Made by a program: the position numbers and the translations under genes. From Comamonas sp. SCN 65-56 (GTDB lineage: Bacteria; Pseudomonadota; Gammaproteobacteria; Burkholderiales; Burkholderiaceae_C): a stretch of 64,000 nt of DNA. Under the pieces are notes generated by a model. The model worked only from the letters and a program-made list of their open reading frames with translations, was not told where the DNA came from and searched no databases. Position 1 is the first letter of the stretch. Every line of letters starts with the position of its first letter. The stretch spans positions 1 to 64,000 of the forward strand of contig NZ_MEDS01000018.1 in the NCBI RefSeq assembly GCF_001724135.1. Direction: 5' to 3'. Below are positions 5,032 to 14,614 of the stretch, piece after piece.

Positions 5032-7308
5032 ATGAAATTTCGTTTTCCGATTGTCATCATCGACGAAGATTACCGTTCCGACAACACCTCGGGACTGGGC
5101 ATACGCGCGCTCGCGCAGGCCATTGAGGAAGAAGGCTTCGAGGTGCTCGGCGTCACCAGCTACGGCGATCTGACCCAGTTCGCGCAGCAGCAAAGCCGCG
5201 CCAGCGCCTTCATTCTGTCGATCGACGACGAGGAGTTCACGCTGGGCGCGGGGCAGGATCCAATCATTCACAGCCTGCGTGCCTTCATCGAGGAAGTTCG
5301 GCGCAAAAACCCGGATGTGCCGATCTACATCTACGGCGAGACCAAGACCAGCCGCCACCTGCCCAACGACATCCTGCGCGAGCTGCACGGCTTCATCCAC
5401 ATGTTCGAGGACACGCCGGAGTTCGTGGCGCGCCACATCATTCGCGAGGCCAAGAGCTATCTGGAAACCATCCAGCCACCGTTTTTCAAGGCGCTGCTCG
5501 ACTACGCCGAGGATGGCTCGTATTCATGGCACTGCCCAGGGCATTCGGGTGGCGTCGCGTTTTTGAAGAGCCCGATCGGGCAGATGTACCACCAGTTCTA
5601 CGGCGAGAACATGCTGCGCGCCGACGTGTGCAACGCGGTGGAAGAACTGGGGCAATTGCTTGATCACAACGGCGCGATCGGCGAGAGCGAGCGCAATGCG
5701 GCGCGCATCTTCAATGCCGACCATTGCTTTTTCGTGACCAACGGCACGTCCACCAGCAACAAGATCGTCTGGCACCACACCGTGGCCCCGGGCGATGTGG
5801 TCGTCGTGGATCGCAACTGTCACAAATCCATCCTGCACGCCATCATCATGACGGGCGCTGTGCCGGTGTTTTTGAAGCCCACGCGCAACCACTTCGGCAT
5901 CATCGGCCCGATTCCGCAAAGCGAATTCGAGCCCGCCACCATCCAGGCCAAGATTCGCGCCAACCCGCTGCTCAAGGGCGTGGACGCGAAAAAGGTGAAA
6001 CCGCGCGTGCTGACGCTCACGCAATCCACCTACGACGGCGTGCTCTACAACACCGAGACCATCAAGCAGATGCTCGACGGCTACGTGGACAACCTGCACT
6101 TCGATGAAGCATGGCTGCCGCACGCCGCGTTTCATCCGTTTTATGGCTCCTACCACGCGATGGGCAAGAAGCGCGCACGGCCGAAAAAATCCGTGGTGTA
6201 TTCCACGCAGTCCATACACAAACTGCTCGCGGGCATCAGCCAGGCGAGCCACGTGCTGGTGCAAGACAGCCAGACGGCCAAGCTCGATCGGCACCTCTTC
6301 AACGAGGCCTATCTGATGCACACCTCAACCAGCCCGCAGTACAGCATCATCGCCAGCTGTGACGTGGCAGCGGCGATGATGGAGCCCCCGGGCGGCACCG
6401 CACTGGTGGAGGAGTCCATCCTGGAGGCGCTGAACTTTCGCCGCGCGATGCGCAAGGTGGAGCAGGAGTTCGGCAAGGGCGACTGGTGGTTCAAGGTCTG
6501 GGGGCCGGAGAAAATTGCCGAAGAAGGCGTGGGGCGCGCGGAGGACTGGATCATCCGCAGCGACGGCAAGGGCCGCAAGAACGGGCACCGCTGGCACGGC
6601 TTCGGTGATCTGGCAGACGGCTTCAACATGCTCGACCCGATCAAGTCGACCATCGTCACGCCGGGGCTTGACCTGGACGGAAAATTCCACAAGGTCGGCA
6701 TTCCCGCGAGCATCGTCACCAAGTACCTCGCCGAGCATGGCGTGGTGGTCGAGAAAACCGGGCTCTACAGCTTCTTCATCATGTTCACCATCGGCATCAC
6801 CAAGGGCCGCTGGAACACGATGCTCACCGCGCTGCAGCAGTTCAAGGACGATTACGAGAAAAACCACCCGATGTGGCGCATCCTGCCGGAGTTCTGCCAG
6901 CAGCACAAACGCTACGAGCACATGGGCCTCAAAGACCTGTGCCAGCACGTGCACGAGCTCTACGCCCGCTACAACGTGGCGCGGCTGACGACCGAGATGT
7001 ACCTCTCGCCGCTCACGCCCGCGATGAAGCCCAGCGACGCGTTCGCGCACATCGCGGCGCGCAAGACAGAGCGTGTGGAGATCGATCACCTGGAAGGGCG
7101 CGTGACGACAAGCCTGATCACCCCCTACCCGCCCGGCATTCCGCTCTTGATTCCGGGCGAAGTGTTCAACCGAAAAATCGTGGATTACCTCAAATTCGCG
7201 CGCGAGTTTTCACGCTTGTGTCCGGGCTTTGAGACCGATATTCACGGCCTGGTCGAGATGGAGGATGCCGAAGGAACGATGCGCTATTACGCCGATTGCG
7301 TGGCGTAA
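5032..7308 (+). CDS. PLP-dependent Arg/Lys/Orn decarboxylase
   Basis: A 758-residue fold-type I decarboxylase of the Orn/Lys/Arg class. The N-terminal 'wing' domain (FRFPIVIIDEDY) resembles a receiver domain. The PLP core contains HCPGHSGG and the Schiff-base lysine K397 in STQSIHKLLAG. A conserved C-terminal domain completes it. It converts a basic amino acid to a polyamine or diamine and CO2. The substrate (Arg, Lys or Orn) cannot be read safely from the sequence; the size fits acid-induced AdiA/LdcA-type enzymes of Pseudomonas and Burkholderia. The ATG at 5032 follows GGAGG. An in-frame extension upstream runs into the NfeD promoter region and is not supported. Confidence 0.93.
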   Translation: MKFRFPIVIIDEDYRSDNTSGLGIRALAQAIEEEGFEVLGVTSYGDLTQFAQQQSRASAFILSIDDEEFTLGAGQDPIIHSLRAFIEEVRRKNPDVPIYIYGETKTSRHLPNDILRELHGFIHMFEDTPEFVARHIIREAKSYLETIQPPFFKALLDYAEDGSYSWHCPGHSGGVAFLKSPIGQMYHQFYGENMLRADVCNAVEELGQLLDHNGAIGESERNAARIFNADHCFFVTNGTSTSNKIVWHHTVAPGDVVVVDRNCHKSILHAIIMTGAVPVFLKPTRNHFGIIGPIPQSEFEPATIQAKIRANPLLKGVDAKKVKPRVLTLTQSTYDGVLYNTETIKQMLDGYVDNLHFDEAWLPHAAFHPFYGSYHAMGKKRARPKKSVVYSTQSIHKLLAGISQASHVLVQDSQTAKLDRHLFNEAYLMHTSTSPQYSIIASCDVAAAMMEPPGGTALVEESILEALNFRRAMRKVEQEFGKGDWWFKVWGPEKIAEEGVGRAEDWIIRSDGKGRKNGHRWHGFGDLADGFNMLDPIKSTIVTPGLDLDGKFHKVGIPASIVTKYLAEHGVVVEKTGLYSFFIMFTIGITKGRWNTMLTALQQFKDDYEKNHPMWRILPEFCQQHKRYEHMGLKDLCQHVHELYARYNVARLTTEMYLSPLTPAMKPSDAFAHIAARKTERVEIDHLEGRVTTSLITPYPPGIPLLIPGEVFNRKIVDYLKFAREFSRLCPGFETDIHGLVEMEDAEGTMRYYADCVA

Positions 7309-7363
7309 ATTCGTGACACCGGTAGAATTGGGCTCTTTACGGATTACAAGGGCGAGAAAGGCA

Positions 7364-7414
7364 ATGTCGGTTATGACACCGCGAACTAGCACGGAGACCA
7401 CCACCCGTCCTTGA
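7364..7414 (+). CDS. Threonine-rich leader peptide of thrS (proposed)
   Basis: A 16-codon open frame, MSVMTPRTSTETTTRP, with an AAGG-type ribosome site a few bases upstream. Six of its 16 residues are threonine (ACA, ACT, ACG and three consecutive ACC). It is followed by alternative RNA stems and a terminator before thrS, the architecture of an amino-acid attenuator. If threonyl-tRNA is scarce a ribosome should stall in the Thr codons. This is inference from composition and structure; I know of no described Thr attenuator of thrS in this group. Confidence 0.7.
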   Translation: MSVMTPRTSTETTTRP

Positions 7415-7486
7415 CGGTCATCGTTCGCGCCTGCCCGAAATCTCTCTCCCACACGAAAAGCGCGGACACCAGGTTCGCGCTTTTTT
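7380..7486 (+). promoter_or_regulatory. Transcription attenuator of thrS (four-segment alternative folding)
   Basis: Four pairing segments are visible. Segment 1 (7380-7386, CGCGAAC), inside the leader-peptide codons, pairs perfectly with segment 2 (7423-7429, GTTCGCG). Segment 2 extended (7423-7430) can instead pair over 8 bp with segment 3 (7460-7467, GCGCGGAC, one G-U). Segment 3 in turn forms the 5' arm of the terminator with segment 4 (7473-7484). A ribosome stalled on the Thr codons would mask segment 1, free segment 2 to pair with 3, and so prevent termination. A TAGAAT -10-like box lies at 7323-7328, without a convincing -35. Confidence 0.72.
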
Positions 7487-7490
7487 CTTT
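7456..7490 (+). terminator. Intrinsic terminator of the thrS attenuator
   Basis: A stem of up to 12 bp (7456-7467 with 7473-7484, five-base loop ACCAG) is followed by TTTTTTCTTTT. It ends 42 nt before the thrS start and is mutually exclusive with the proposed antiterminator. Confidence 0.85.
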
Positions 7491-7532
7491 TCAAGCGCGC
7501 CCATCGCACCATAACGCCACGAAAGATTTCTC

Positions 7533-9452
7533 ATGATCGCCATCACGCTTCCCGACGGTTCACTACGCGAATTCCCCGGCCCGGTCACCGTCGCCGAAGT
7601 GGCCGCTTCGATCGGCACGGGCCTGGCCAAGGCCGCGATCGCGGGCAAGGTGAACGACAAGGTTGTCGATACCGCGTACTCCATCGCGCAAGACAGCCGC
7701 CTGGCCATCCTCACGGCCAAGGACGCCGAGGGGCTGGAGGTGATCCGCCACTCTGCCGCCCACCTGCTGGCCTATGCAGTGAAAGAATTGTTCCCCGACG
7801 CGCAGGTGACGATAGGCCCGGTGATCGAAAACGGCTTTTATTACGACTTTTCGTACAAGCGCCCGTTCACGCCCGAAGACCTCGCGGCGATCGAAAAGCG
7901 CATGACCGAACTCGCCGCCAAGGACGAACCGGTGGTGCGCCGCGTGCTGCCGCGCGATGCGGCCGTTGAGTACTTCAAGGGCCTGGGCGAGCACTACAAG
8001 GCCGAAATCATCGCCAGCATCCCGCAGGATCAGGATGTGAGCCTGTACCGCGAGGGCGGCTTCGAAGACCTGTGCCGCGGCCCGCACGTGCCCTCGACGG
8101 GCAAGCTGAAATTCTTCAAGCTGATGAAGGTGGCTGGCGCCTATTGGCGGGGCGATCACCGCAACGAGATGCTGCAGCGCATCTACGGCACGGCCTGGGC
8201 CAGCAAGGAAGACTTGCAGCAGTACCTGACCATGCTGGAGGAAGCCGAAAAACGCGACCACCGCCGCTTGGGGCGTGAGCTCGATCTGTTTCACATCGAC
8301 GAGCACTCACCCGGCACGGTGTTCTGGCATCCGCGCGGCTGGGCGATCTGGCAAGAAGTCGAGCAGTACATGCGGCGCGTCTACCGCGACAACGGCTACC
8401 AGGAGGTCAAGGGCCCACAAATTCTGGACAAGGGCCTGTGGGAGAAAACCGGCCACTGGGAAAAATACCGCGAAAACATGTTCACGACGGAGTCAGAAAA
8501 GCGCGACTACGCCTTGAAACCGATGAACTGCCCGGGCCACATCCTGATCTTCAAGCAGGGCGTGAAAAGCTACCGCGACCTGCCACTGCGCTATGGCGAA
8601 TTCGGCGCTTGTCACAGAAACGAGCCGACAGGCGGGCTGCACGGCATCATGCGCGTGCGCGCCTTCACGCAGGACGATGGCCACATCTTCTGCACCGAAG
8701 ATCAGATCCAGGACGAGGTGCTGGCATTCACGCGCGTGCTGCAAAAGGTCTACGCCGATTTCGGCTTCAAGGACATCATCTACAAGATCGCGACGCGCCC
8801 CGAGGCGCGCATCGGCTCTGACGAGGTCTGGGACAAGGCCGAGGCGGCGCTGATCGAAAGCCTGAAGGCCTCGGGTTGCGGCTATGAGCTCTCACCCGGC
8901 GAAGGGGCGTTTTACGGCCCGAAGATCGAATACACGCTCAAGGACGCGATCGGGCGCCAGTGGCAGTGCGGCACGATCCAGGTGGATTTTTCCATGCCTG
9001 AACGGCTGGACGCCGAATACGTCGGGGAGGACGGTGCGCGCCATCGCCCGGTGATGCTGCACCGCGCCATCGTCGGTTCGCTGGAGCGCTTCATCGGCAT
9101 CCTGATCGAGCAGCACGCGGGCGCACTGCCCGTGTGGCTGGCGCCGGTACAGGTGGCAGTGCTCAACATCACCGACGCGCAAGCCGACTACTGTCGCGAA
9201 ATTGCCGCAAAGCTGCAAAAAGCGTTGCCGAATCAAGGCCTTAGGGTAGTGACCGGCCTGGGTAACCAAAAGATTACGTATAAAATACGCGAGTTTGCGC
9301 TGCAAAAGCCGCCCTACATCCTCGTCGCTGGCGACAAGGAAAAGGCGGCAGGTGCAGTTGCAGTGCGCGCCCGGGGCAATGTCGATCTGGGCGTGATGTC
9401 TCTCGACGCTTTCGTCGAACGAATCGCACGGGACATCGCCGCCAAGGCCTGA
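7533..9452 (+). CDS. thrS: Threonyl-tRNA synthetase
   Basis: Class II synthetase charging tRNA-Thr, 639 residues, full length. The N-terminal TGS domain begins [14 protein letters not shown]. The editing domain carries the HxxxH motif (H73-SAA-H77). The catalytic core contains the zinc-binding cysteine C333 in MNCPGH and the motif 2 region [15 protein letters not shown]. The C-terminal anticodon-binding domain ends the protein. It opens the translation cluster thrS-infC-rpmI-rplT-pheS-pheT and is preceded by an apparent Thr attenuator, so regulation by charged tRNA-Thr is likely. Confidence 0.98.
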
Positions 9453-9539
9453 ATTTCATAGCCGAATCATGCTTTGACGCGCGCCAGCAGTGCGCAAGCG
9501 GCTACGCTTTTCGTAGTCAACTGAACAGAGGTGAAAACC

Positions 9540-10139
9540 ATCGCTACTGAATACCGTGATCGCCGTCACCGCGAGGAACGCAAGCACAGGCTCAACCGTG
9601 AAATCATGGCTCCCGAGGTTCGCCTCTCGGGGCCGGACAACGAAGCCATAGGCATCGTGAGCCTGCAGGAAGCCCTGCGCATGGCCGGCGACCTGGACGT
9701 GGATCTGGTGGAGATTGCCGCCACCGCCAATCCGCCGGTCTGCCGCCTGATGGATTACGGCAAGTTCAAGTACCAGGAACAGAAGAAGGCGGCGGAGGCC
9801 AAAGCCAAGCAGACCGTCATCGACATCAAGGAAGTGAAATTCCGCCCTGGCACGGACGATGGCGACTACAACATCAAGCTGCGCAACATCCGCCGCTTTC
9901 TGGCCGATGGCGACAAGGTCAAGGTCACGCTGCGTTTTCGCGGCCGCGAGATCACGCACCAGAACCTGGGGCTGGCCCTGCTCAATCGCATCCGCGATGA
10001 GCTGGCCGACACCATCCTGGTCGAGCAGTTTCCCAAGCTTGAAGGCCGTCAGATGATCATGATGATCGCCCCGGCGCGCAAAAAACCCGCCGCCCCGGTA
10101 AAGGCACTGACTGCCAGCAGCACGACGGCTGCCGCATAA
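9540..10139 (+). CDS. infC: Translation initiation factor IF-3 (non-canonical AUC start)
   Basis: IF-3 binds the 30S subunit and checks start-codon/initiator-tRNA pairing. The 199-residue protein reads [21 protein letters not shown], then the N-domain ([19 protein letters not shown]), the lysine-rich linker and the C-domain. A strong ribosome site AGAGGTGA (9527-9534) lies 5 nt before an ATC codon at 9540. The only upstream GTG (9531) is inside that ribosome site. The true start is therefore almost certainly AUC, matching the rare AUU/AUC starts by which IF-3 limits its own synthesis in other bacteria. It lies downstream of thrS with 87 nt between them. Confidence 0.95.
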
Positions 10140-10166
10140 AGTTGGCAATGGAATTGAATGTGGTGC

Positions 10167-10284
10167 GGCAGCCTGCTGCCACGCCAACAGGCAGTGCGGT
10201 GAACGCACTGCCGCACGAGCAGCGCCGCAAGGCCTGATCGTCAAAAGTGGCTCGGGGCCTGCAAGGGTGCACAAGGTTGTGCAC
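10167..10284 (+). promoter_or_regulatory. Structured leader between infC and rpmI
   Basis: Three hairpins are visible in the 180-nt gap: 10167-10180 (GGCAG/CTGCC), 10190-10212 (perfect 9-bp stem GGCAGTGCG/CGCACTGCC) and 10267-10284 (perfect 8-bp stem GTGCACAA/TTGTGCAC). None has a T-run. In E. coli, L20 represses rpmI-rplT translation by binding RNA in this position; that this region does the same here is inference. Confidence 0.4.
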
Positions 10285-10319
10285 ACGCCTCACGAGCACA
10301 AATGAAGAGGAGCATGCAA

Positions 10320-10517
10320 ATGCCCAAAATGAAGACCAAGAGCGGCGCGAAAAAGCGTTTCCGCGTTCGTCCGGGTGGCACCGTGAAGCGGGGCCAGGCG
10401 TTCAAGCGCCACATCCTGACCAAGAAGAGCACCAAGAACAAGCGCCAGTTGCGTGGCATGGTCGGGGTGCATGACGGTGACATGGGCTCCATCGCCAAGA
10501 TGTCTGTAATTCACTGA
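10320..10517 (+). CDS. rpmI: 50S ribosomal protein L35
   Basis: A 65-residue, highly basic L35: [14 protein letters not shown], then [18 protein letters not shown]. This is the exact family length. The ATG at 10320 is preceded by AGAGGAG. It is co-transcribed with rplT 18 nt downstream, and the leader upstream is rich in hairpins that may serve L20 autoregulation. Confidence 0.97.
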
Positions 10518-10535
10518 CGAACAAGGAGAAAACAC

Positions 10536-10895
10536 ATGCCTCGCGTCAAACGTGGTGTTACGGCTCGCGCCCGCCATAAAAAGGTTCTCGCCCTTGCCAA
10601 GGGTTTTCGCGGTCGTCGCGGCAACGTCTTTCGCATCGCCAAACAGGCGGTGATGAAGGCGGGCCAATACGCCTACCGTGACCGCCGCAACAAGAAGCGC
10701 GTGTTCCGCCGTCTGTGGATCACCCGCATCAATGCGGCCGTGCGTGTGCAAGGGTTGACCTACAGCCAGTTCACCAACGGACTGAAGAAGGCCATGATCG
10801 AGATCGACCGCAAGATGCTGGCCGACCTCGCAGTGCACGACGAAGCTGCGTTCAGCGGCATCGTGGAGCAGGTCAAGGCCAAGCTGGCAGCCTGA
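10536..10895 (+). CDS. rplT: 50S ribosomal protein L20
   Basis: A 119-residue L20: [40 protein letters not shown] and a C-terminal globular domain. L20 is an early 50S assembly protein that binds 23S rRNA and, in E. coli, represses its own operon. AAGGAG lies 8 nt before the ATG. A strong terminator follows before pheS. Confidence 0.97.
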
Positions 10896-10943
10896 GTCGG
10901 CACGCAATTGCTATTTCAAACGTAGCAATTCGCGCACTCCCCA

Positions 10944-10986
10944 CGAGGGCCAGAGCTTGCAAAGGCACTGGCCCTCGTTTTTATTT
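10944..10986 (+). terminator. Rho-independent terminator between rplT and pheS
   Basis: A perfect 10-bp stem (CGAGGGCCAG / CTGGCCCTCG) is followed by TTTTTATTT. It separates the ribosomal genes from pheST. I found no Phe-rich leader peptide before it, so I call it a terminator rather than a pheM-type attenuator. A small ATTGCTA/TAGCAAT stem precedes it. Confidence 0.85.
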
Positions 10987-10997
10987 GCGAAGTTGTC

Positions 10998-12071
10998 ATG
11001 AACGATTTGGATACCCTGGTTGAAAGCGCCCGCACGCAATTTGCCGCCGCCAGTGCGCCCCACGATCTGGAGAACGCCAAGGCGCAATTCATCGGCAAGT
11101 CCGGTCGACTGACCGAGCTGATGAAGGGGATGGCACAGCTATCGCCCGAGGAAAAACGCACACGCGGCGCCGCCATCAACACCGCCAAACAGGCCATAGA
11201 GGCTGCCTTGAACGCACGCCGCCAGACGCTGCAGGATGCCGAGCTTGAAGCCCATCTCAAGGCCGAGGCGCTGGACGTGACGCTGCCAGGGCGTCAGCGC
11301 GGGCACGGCGGCCTGCACCCGGTGACACTCACCATGGAGCGCATCGAGGGCATCTTCGGCTCCATGGGGTTCGACGTGGCCGACGGCCCGGAGATCGAGA
11401 CCGACTGGTTCAGCTTCACCTCGCTCAACAACCCGCCCAACCACCCGGCGCGCTCGATGCAGGACACCTTCTACATCGACGGCAACGGCAGCGACGGCCT
11501 GCCGCTGAACCTGCGCCCGCACACCAGCCCGATGCAGGTGCGCTATGCCCACGCCCACGTGCGCAAATACGGCAACGGCTTTGATCCGCGCTCGGGGCAG
11601 CTCTACAGTGGCCCCATGCCCGACATCCGCGTGATTGCGCCCGGGCGCACCTACCGCGTCGATTCGGACGCCACGCATTCGCCGATGTTTCACCAATGCG
11701 AAGGCCTGTGGCTGGGCGAGAACGTGAGCTTCAGTGACCTCAAAACCATTTTCACGGGTTTTTGCCGCACGTTCTTTGAGAACGACGATCTAGTGCTGCG
11801 CTTTCGCCCCAGCTTCTTCCCCTTCACTGAGCCAAGCGCCGAGATCGACATCCAGTTCCCCTCGGGGCCGCTGGCCGGCAAGTGGCTGGAAGTGGCCGGC
11901 TCGGGCCAGGTGCATCCCAACGTGGTACGCCACATGGGGCTCGATCCCGAGCGCTACATCGGTTTCGCCTTCGGCATGGGCCCGGACCGCCTGACCATGC
12001 TGCGTTACGGCGTGAATGACCTGCGGCTGTTCTTTGATGGCGATATCCGCTTTCTGTCGCAATTTCAGTAA
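10998..12071 (+). CDS. pheS: Phenylalanyl-tRNA synthetase alpha subunit
   Basis: Catalytic alpha subunit of the alpha2-beta2 enzyme, 357 residues. An N-terminal coiled coil (residues 1-85) binds tRNA. The class II core shows [19 protein letters not shown], the HTSPMQVRY region and motif 3 near the end ([14 protein letters not shown]). The start is 12 nt after the terminator T-run. The gap to pheT holds two back-to-back copies of a dispersed repeat, yet the pair stays adjacent and probably co-transcribed. Confidence 0.97.
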
Positions 12072-12170
12072 AAAGAGAGCTGTCAGCGCCTGTCTGGCAT
12101 GGATATAAAACCGTTTTGTTATTGAAAGCGTTTCACAGCAAGCGCGAAAAGCTACTCAAACAAGAGCATT
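12070..12170 (+). repeat. Two inverted copies of the GATAGCTG-type dispersed palindromic repeat
   Basis: The pheS-pheT gap is filled by one copy on the plus strand (12070-12120, starting AAAAAGAGAGCTGTCAGCGCC) and one on the minus strand (12118-12170, with AAAAGCTACTCAAACAAG). Both diverge somewhat from the core GATAGCTG-N4-CGCWT seen at other copies in this window. Confidence 0.55.
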
Positions 12171-12184
12171 CCCGAGAAAACCCC

Positions 12185-14614
12185 ATGCAATTTCCTGAAT
12201 CGTGGCTACGTGAATTCTGCAACCCGCCGCTGGACACGCAGGCGCTGGCCGATCTGCTGACCATGGCCGGCCTCGAAGTGGAAGACACCCGGCCGGTTGC
12301 CCCGCCCTTTTCCGGGATCGTCGTGGGCGAGATCAAGGATGCGCAACCACACCCCAACGCCGACCGCCTGCGCGTGTGCCAGGTGGACGTGGGCGCCGCG
12401 CAGTTGCTCAGCATCGTCTGCGGCGCGCCCAACGCGCGCGCGGGCATCCGCGTGCCCTGCGCGCTGGTTGGCGCCGAGCTGCCGCCGGGCGACGACGGCA
12501 AGCCGTTTCACATCAAGACAGGCAAGCTGCGTGGCGTGGAGAGCCACGGCATGCTGTGCTCGGCGCGTGAGCTCAAGCTCTCGGAAGACCATGCCGGCTT
12601 GCTGGAACTACCTGCCGACGCGCCGCTGGGTCAGGACATCCGCGCATACCTCCAGCTCGACGACACCCTGTTCACGCTGAAGCTCACGCCCAACCTCGGC
12701 CATGCCCTGAGCGTGCATGGCGTCGCGCGCGAAGTGGCGGCGCTGACCGGCGCGCCGCTCAAGGCGCCGCCACTGCCAACGATCGCGCCCACCAACGCCG
12801 ATCGCCTTGCCGTCACGATTGAGGCTGCCGACCTCTGCGGCCGCTTCTCCGGCCGCGTGGTGCGCCACATCAACCCGCGCGCGCAAACGCCGCGGTGGAT
12901 GGTCGAGCGCCTGGCGCGCTGCGGCCAGCGCAGCGTCTCGCCACTGGTGGACATCTCCAACTACGTGATGTTCGAGCTGGGGCGCCCCTCGCACATCTTC
13001 GATCTCGAAAAGATCGCAGGAGGCCTCACGGTGCGCTGGGGCAAAGCAGGAGAGCAACTCAAGCTGCTCAACGGCAACACCGTCACCGTAGATGAAAAAG
13101 TAGGCGTGATTGCCGACCGCAACGGGCTGGAGTCGCTCGCCGGCATCATGGGCGGCGACACCACCGCAGTGAGCGACGACACGCGGCATGTTTTCATCGA
13201 GGCTGCCTTTTGGTGGCCCGACGCCATTGCCGGGCGCTCGCGCCGCTTCAATTTCTCGACCGATGCGGGACACCGCTTCGAACGTGGCGTTGACCCCGCG
13301 CTGACCGTGGAGCATATCGAGCACATCACCGCGCTCGTCCTGCAAATTTGCGGCACACCGGAGACCACCTGCGGCCCCATCGTGGATGACCAGCCCGCCA
13401 TGCCCCAGCCCACGCCGGTGCGCCTGCGCGTGGCGCGCGCCGCCAAGGTGATTGGCATGCCACTGACCCAGCCGCAGTGCGCCGACGCGCTCAAGCGCCT
13501 GGATCTGGCAGTCACCCAGGAAGACGGCGCCGTGAAGGTGGTGCCACCAAGCTATCGGTTTGATCTGCGCATGGAGGAAGACCTCATCGAAGAGGTTGCC
13601 CGCATCATCGGCTACCAGAACCTGCCTGCCGACGCCCCCCTGGGCCGCATCGCGCCACGGCTGCAGGCCGAAAGCCAGCGTGGCCGCTATGTGGTGCGCC
13701 GCGAAATGGCGGCACTGGACTACCAGGAAACCATCAATTTCAGCTTCGTCGAAGAACGCTGGGAGCACGAGCTCGCAGGCAACGACGCGCCGATCCGTCT
13801 GCTCAACCCCATCGCCAGCCAGATGAGCGTGATGCGCTCCACGCTGCTCGGTTCGCTGCTGCAGGCACTCAAGTTCAACCTGGACCGCAAGGCGGCACGC
13901 GTGCGCCTGTTTGAAGTCGGCCGCGTGTACCGGCGCGATGCCCGGGTGAAAGATACCGACGCCACCGTGCAAGGCTACGCCCAGCCTGTGCATATCGCCG
14001 CACTGGCCTACGGCAGCGCCAGCGCGCTTCAGTGGGGAACGAAAGAGCGCGCGGTGGATTTTTACGATGCCAAAGGCGATGTGGAGGCACTGCTGTCGCC
14101 TCTGAAGCCCAGCTTTGAAGCCACCGAACACTCGGCGATGCACCCCGGGCGCTGCGCCTGCGTACGGCTGGACGGCAAGGTCATTGGCCACGTCGGCGAG
14201 TTGCATCCGCGCTGGCGCCAATCGTGGAGCCTGGCCCAGGCCCCGATGTTGTTCGAGCTCGACTTCAACGCCGTGCTGCAGCGCAAGGTGCCCGCCTTCG
14301 CATCGGTCGCGCGACTGCAGCATGTGGAACGCGACATTGCCATCGTCGTGGCCGAGAGCATCACCCACCAGCAAGTCCTGCAGGCAGCGCAAGGCGCGCT
14401 CGCTGCCGATCTGCTGCGTTCCTGCGTGTTGTTCGATGTCTTTCGCCCACAGGCAGGCGCCTCCTCCGGCAGCCTTGCAAGTGGCGAGAAAAGTTTGGCC
14501 ATCCGCCTGACGCTGGAAAGTGGCAATGCAACCCTGACCGACACCGACATCGACGCCGCCGTCCAGCAGGTAGTGCAGGCGCTGGCACAACAAACGGGAG
14601 CCCGACTGCGATGA
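12185..14614 (+). CDS. pheT: Phenylalanyl-tRNA synthetase beta subunit
   Basis: An 809-residue beta subunit. It has an N-terminal tRNA-binding EMAP/OB domain (about 40-150, beginning near [20 protein letters not shown]), B3/B4 editing and B5 domains, a catalytic-like core and a C-terminal ferredoxin-fold anticodon-binding domain (about 715-809). Together with PheS it charges tRNA-Phe and edits mischarged Tyr. The start [11 protein letters not shown] is the usual one; the frame is open further upstream but only through repeat sequence. Its stop overlaps the ihfA start (ATGA). Confidence 0.97.

Follow-up and report, generated by a model that had tools for sequence, protein, structure and literature searches.

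A probable threonine attenuator upstream of thrS in Comamonas sp. SCN 65-56 and other Burkholderiales

How is threonyl-tRNA synthetase (ThrRS) controlled in a bacterium whose thrS is preceded by a short open reading frame (ORF) rich in Thr codons and by a terminator-like hairpin? Ribosome-mediated attenuators control amino-acid operons (the trp, his, thr, leu, and ilv leaders), and E. coli pheST is attenuated via codons of its own amino acid. For thrS itself, sections of the literature describe two other arrangements: in E. coli, ThrRS binds a tRNA-like operator in its own mRNA, a translational autoregulation (PMC8058203; PMC2965389), and in Bacillota thrS carries tandem T-boxes, with a thrS-infC-rpmI-rplT operon in Clostridium (PMC12452182). 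The locus analyzed here lies in a window of 64,000 nt (contig NZ_MEDS01000018.1, forward strand), and its best reading, to which we assign a probability of roughly 0.88, is a classical ribosome-mediated transcription attenuator by which thrS would respond to the supply of threonyl-tRNA.

Leader gene, pairing segments, and gene context

The features of the locus, all on the + strand, are as follows:

7323..7328, +, -10-like hexamer TAGAAT (read by eye; TAAAAT-like hexamers similarly placed in several relatives)
7354..7361, +, Shine-Dalgarno-like sequence GAGAAAGG of the leader (from sequence; GAAAGG-like blocks in most leaders compared)
7364..7372, +, in-frame upstream ATG TCG GTT, the start in the initial annotation (ATG unconserved)
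7370..7387, +, 18-nt block GTTATGACACCGCGAACT spanning the leader start, almost invariant (51 nonredundant MTP-type sequences)
7373..7414, +, leader peptide gene MTPRTSTETTTRP with stop codon (six Thr in 13 codons: 2, 5, 7, 9, 10, 11)
7380..7386, +, segment 1, CGCGAAC (pairs with 7423-7429)
7405..7417, +, inner hairpin CCGTC-ctt-GACGG around the leader stop codon (computed fold)
7423..7430, +, segment 2, GTTCGCGC (partner is segment 1 or segment 3)
7455..7485, +, intrinsic terminator hairpin (3:4), then T-run (13-bp stem, 5-nt loop)
7460..7467, +, segment 3, GCGCGGAC, terminator 5' arm (pairs with segment 2)
7533..9452, +, thrS, threonine--tRNA ligase (NCBIfam TIGR00418, 707.2 bits, cut-off 383.65)
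9531-10139, +, infC (NCBIfam equivalog above cut-off)
10320-10517, +, rpmI (NCBIfam equivalog above cut-off)
10536-10895, +, rplT (NCBIfam equivalog above cut-off)
10998-12071, +, pheS (NCBIfam equivalog above cut-off)
12182-14614, +, pheT (NCBIfam equivalog above cut-off; start picked to fit the family)

Compared base by base with the sequence, the description of 7364-7490 in the initial annotation holds in all but the start codon. The 16-codon ORF at 7364-7411, MSVMTPRTSTETTTRP, is present with its TGA stop (7412-7414) and six Thr codons, three of them consecutive (ACC, 7397-7405), as are the perfect 1:2 pairing (7380-7386 CGCGAAC with 7423-7429 GTTCGCG), the 2:3 pairing of GTTCGCGC (7423-7430) with GCGCGGAC (7460-7467) over 8 bp including one G-U, and the strong 3:4 terminator and T-run, described at 7456-7484 and found as a hairpin at 7455-7485. 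The start at 7364 is rejected: the bases at that ATG differ among relatives, and because the start codon conserved there is the in-frame ATG at 7373, the leader has 13 codons. The inner hairpin at 7405-7417, which encloses the leader stop codon, is an addition to that description. The promoter of the leader is putative, since a consensus promoter scan found none and the hexamer was read by eye.

Behind thrS, we infer that infC-rpmI-rplT-pheS-pheT (9531..14614) is co-transcribed with it. Between rplT and pheS there is a strong terminator-like hairpin at 10944-10983 (CGAGGGCCAG/CTGGCCCTCG and a T-run), and no Phe-rich leader was noticed by eye before it. The gene upstream of thrS (5032-7308) encodes a relative of Orn/Lys/Arg decarboxylases; its product reaches the curated cut-off in none of the six NCBIfam families listed.

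Taken alone, the attenuator features in the window are only moderately unusual. The fold has a z-score of -2.23, with 6 of 200 shuffles folding equally well; one terminator-like site lies in 7000-7800 against 1.0 expected; and the energy of the 2:3 duplex is matched by 80 of 2000 linker shuffles.

Threonine leaders and co-varying segments in relatives

The comparison covers 237 thrS upstream regions: the window, 80 loci from one scan of genome contigs, seven from the same genus, and 149 order-wide, the last being those among the matches listed of 176 other genomes of the order with thrS. By an automatic criterion (a hairpin together with a short ORF that contains MTPRT or has three or more Thr in seven codons), 48 of the 149 order-wide regions among the matches listed are positive and 101 fail; on that count the attenuator would occur in roughly one of every three genomes sampled from this large order. 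Among the 48, L175 is doubtful and a few others may be chance. Without L175, the positives span 19 of the 47 families fetched. An MTPRT leader and a terminator occur in all seven other genomes of the genus in which thrS is matched in full (G007, which has no full match, is not among the seven), and the window is positive too. Counting the leader by itself (MTP[RL]T or at least four Thr in seven codons, within 330 nt) gives 31/80 for the contig scan, 41/149 order-wide, 7/7 for the genus, and 1/1 for the window.

The enrichment is specific to Thr. In 176 thrS upstream regions with a terminator-like hairpin, each compared with 10 dinucleotide-preserving shuffles, 44 ORFs have at least four Thr in seven codons against 0.2 expected (83 against 5.6 at the looser level of at least three in seven). 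At the stricter level no other amino acid has a strong excess in these regions, the next largest ratio being that of Phe, with 2 against 0.1 expected. Val reaches 30 against 7.4 expected at three or more in seven; as a leader signal this was rejected, the source probably being short ORFs inside a tRNA gene that precedes thrS in several relatives. In five betaproteobacteria (L029, L064, L067, L071, and L076) the tRNA gene before the thrS leader appears from its sequence to be tRNA-Val(GAC). Recurrent leaders of unrelated sequence were found (MTPRTTT.., MFKRTTTTRISR, MSFRTTTTGTLNLG, and MLKTDTTTLMISG); the leaders diverge strongly outside the Thr run, and selection therefore keeps the run itself. 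The initial annotation made its reading depend on conservation of the leader codons and stems in relatives: many of them keep both the Thr leader and the terminator or have equivalents in their place.

Across families, changes in segment 2 go with changes in segment 3. Own 2:3 duplexes have -14.77 kcal/mol vs. -12.90 kcal/mol for swapped partners, a difference reached in 0 of 5000 permutations (29 clusters), and in 26 of 5000 at the strictest clustering (10 clusters). This final test was run without four of the 78 entries (L017, L019, L041, and L175), whose Thr ORFs come from the upstream gene or a tRNA; an earlier run that included them likewise gave 0/5000, and both runs contain L137 with a wrongly chosen ORF, its real leader being of the MTPRT type. 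The 1:2 swap is weaker (43/5000 with 29 clusters, and 1308/5000 at the strictest clustering, with 10). Against dinucleotide-shuffled versions of their own linkers, the 2:3 duplexes have a mean z of -1.40, and nine of 29 clusters fall in the best 5%. Because of the Thr-leader excess (44 vs. 0.2) and the 2:3 partner swap (0/5000), the attenuator stands far above chance.

Within the close group the helices were followed in an alignment, A1, of 26 of 44 nonredundant sequences (the window and 25 relatives), picked for an alignable segment 2, which is still misaligned in roughly six of them (L021, L022, L023, L028, L036, and L049). In A1 the terminator helix has 96.2% of cells paired, the 2:3 helix 88.9%, and the outer 1:2 helix 88.5%; a terminator is present in 26/26, its possession having been a criterion of selection. 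The inner helix around the leader stop co-varies, with two-sided changes in 6/6 pairs and 65.1% of cells paired, the window's own register differing from the aligned one. Co-variation of 2:3 within this group is not above shuffles (183/500), because segment 3 is nearly fixed there. On the stem co-variation that the initial annotation had proposed as a check, the result is positive for segments 2 and 3 between families and no better than shuffles for 2:3 in the close group. Three attenuator hallmarks are found together: a short Thr-enriched leader, a terminator between leader and gene, and a mutually exclusive 2:3 pairing. The claim of a trp-type Thr attenuator on thrS draws support from this conservation in relatives and from the co-variation of segments 2 and 3 across families.

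Folding with a ribosome and proposed mechanism

In the full RNA with no ribosome, the prevailing structures are 1:2, at a probability of 0.81, and the terminator, at 1.00. When the RNA upstream of the ribosome edge is removed, a stall at any of the six Thr codons gives P(2:3) of at least 0.96 before segment 4 has been made; with the ribosome at the stop codon, P(2:3) is 0.81, 0.60, and 0.00 for edges of 11, 13, and 16 nt, respectively. A stall at codon 13 (Pro, the last sense codon and not a Thr codon) also leaves 2:3, with P(2:3) of 0.98, 0.98, and 0.60 at the same three edges; Thr specificity therefore rests on the codons and not on the fold. If pairing across the ribosome is allowed, P(2:3) is no more than 0.01-0.08 for stalls at codons 9-11, and stalls at Thr codons 2, 5, and 7 favor 2:3 with or without such pairing. 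At equilibrium 3:4 prevails in every ribosome state computed; the switch must therefore be kinetic, as it is in the trp attenuator.

The proposed sequence of events is that RNA polymerase would initiate some 30-40 nt upstream of the leader gene, with a ribosome trailing it along the Thr-rich leader of 13 codons. With too little threonyl-tRNA, a ribosome stalled at a Thr codon would mask segment 1 together with some of the inner hairpin, and the free segment 2 could then capture segment 3 as it emerges, so that 3:4 would not form and transcription would read through into thrS, perhaps extending to the genes behind it. If threonyl-tRNA is ample, the ribosome would reach the stop codon, which lies 8 nt short of segment 2, and would start to mask that segment; alternatively, it would leave and 1:2 would form. 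In either case, with segment 2 masked or held in 1:2, segment 3 would be unpaired and the terminator would form.

The 18-nt block, rival explanations, and known systems

Around the leader start, the block GTTATGACACCGCGAACT is nearly unchanged in the 51 nonredundant MTP-type leaders, although the flanks have diverged. All 51 agree at positions -3 to -1 and at the wobble positions of codons 2 and 3, and 92% agree at that of codon 4; the regular expression for the block fixes most coding positions and leaves free the flanks, the wobble bases in codons 2-4, and, from codon 5 onward, all but that codon's first base. The codons concerned are little used: in a count over six genes of the window, ACA makes up 5%, ACT 2%, and CGA 3% of its codon family. 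An overlapping 18-mer, GGTTATGACACCGCGAAC, has 46 matches that are exact or carry one mismatch, and all 32 that were placed lie 117-284 nt upstream of thrS (the placements come from two sets, of 16 and 26, with 10 in common; 14 of the 46 were not placed); at two mismatches, two of the 23 placed precede thrS. The block is also kept in eight leaders whose Thr codons are limited to positions 2 and 5 (L006, L011, L012, L032, L150, L243, L259, and L260), and these leaders weigh against the attenuator reading.

Codon counting and the 1:2 stem account for part of this conservation but for neither the GTT nor the wobble base of ACA. One proposal is a dual sensor, in which Thr-codon counting is combined with recognition of the GUUAUGACACCGCGAACU block as RNA, or of nascent MTPRT, by the ribosome, ThrRS, or another such factor; it would explain leaders that keep the block with just two Thr codons, and we regard it as speculative and rather unlikely. 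In another reading, ThrRS itself would bind the leader, as a tRNA-Thr mimic of the kind found in E. coli, with the invariant block in its site, and this binding would set termination. The wobble and non-coding bases of the block, fixed beyond the needs of codon counting, speak for such binding, as do the leaders that hold just two Thr codons. Against it, the block has no common fold among the 27 leaders folded, a search for a downstream pairing partner returned weak duplexes (mean -7.1 kcal/mol in 56 sequences, as raw, uncontrolled energies) and the candidate was rejected, and Thr runs persist in leaders that lack the block; we consider this reading highly improbable.

The hairpin might instead be an ordinary terminator or a 5' stability element, and the leader a translated upstream ORF with no Thr sensing. 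Such an arrangement could be seen in relatives that retain the hairpin and T-run before thrS with no Thr leader (L010, L017, L018, L019, L025, and L041), which are possible decayed attenuators, yet it would predict neither a Thr-specific codon excess nor a segment 2 that changes in step with the arm of the terminator, and it is quite improbable. To a T-box riboswitch we give almost no credence: thrS is under T-boxes, often tandem, in Bacillota according to parts of the source (PMC12452182), but no T-box covariance model of Rfam matches here. More broadly, no Rfam 15 family reaches its cut-off in the window, and only tRNAs matched in 20 of the 80 contig-scan loci; RF00506 (Thr_leader) stays below its cut-off at 16.5 bits vs. 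55, and weak matches such as RF02278 (16.4 bits, cut-off 50) were dismissed as looking like mere resemblance between terminators. The ribosome-mediated attenuator remains the preferred reading.

It resembles the attenuators of amino-acid operons in having a leader peptide with many residues of the amino acid that is sensed, a choice between 1:2, 2:3, and 3:4 pairings, and an intrinsic terminator, and differs from them in governing an aminoacyl-tRNA synthetase rather than biosynthesis. In E. coli pheST, too, a synthetase is attenuated through codons for the amino acid that it charges; here, unlike there, the codons are for Thr, the gene is thrS, the host belongs to the betaproteobacteria, and the attenuator precedes thrS, while pheS and pheT come later in the gene row. 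The gene is shared with E. coli thrS, where ThrRS acts on a tRNA-like mRNA element and not through a leader peptide and terminator as here; the gene and the signal, uncharged tRNA-Thr, are shared with the Bacillota T-boxes as described in part of that source, which have no match at this locus. The mechanism is already known, and the gene and the clade appear new and unexpected for attenuation. The statement in the initial annotation that no Thr attenuator of thrS had been described in betaproteobacteria is uncontradicted by the literature searched: none is found in the titles and abstract openings covered, though Lopatovskaya et al. 2010, reportedly on the attenuation of aminoacyl-tRNA genes, might hold one. 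For ThrRS, the available portion of a 2010 survey of premature terminators mentions just E. coli autoregulation (PMC2965389).

If the attenuator reading is true, thrS has a third distinct control, additional to the translational operator of E. coli and the T-box of Bacillota, all three serving one physiological need, and the supply of threonyl-tRNA may be tied to the genes for IF3, L35, L20, and PheRS behind thrS. Dozens of natural variants would also be available for the codon and pairing rules of attenuation. Outside the order but within the same class, an MTP[RL]T leader occurs in 0 of 66 thrS upstream regions and at least four Thr in seven codons in one of 66, L322, where the ORF apparently starts inside a tRNA gene (the 66 are drawn from 111 thrS matches; L283 and L303 could not be placed). 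Two genomes from outside the order, L081 and L328, have short Thr-rich ORFs before thrS (MSTTSSQR and ..MSTTTAQR), which are possibly an independent leader.
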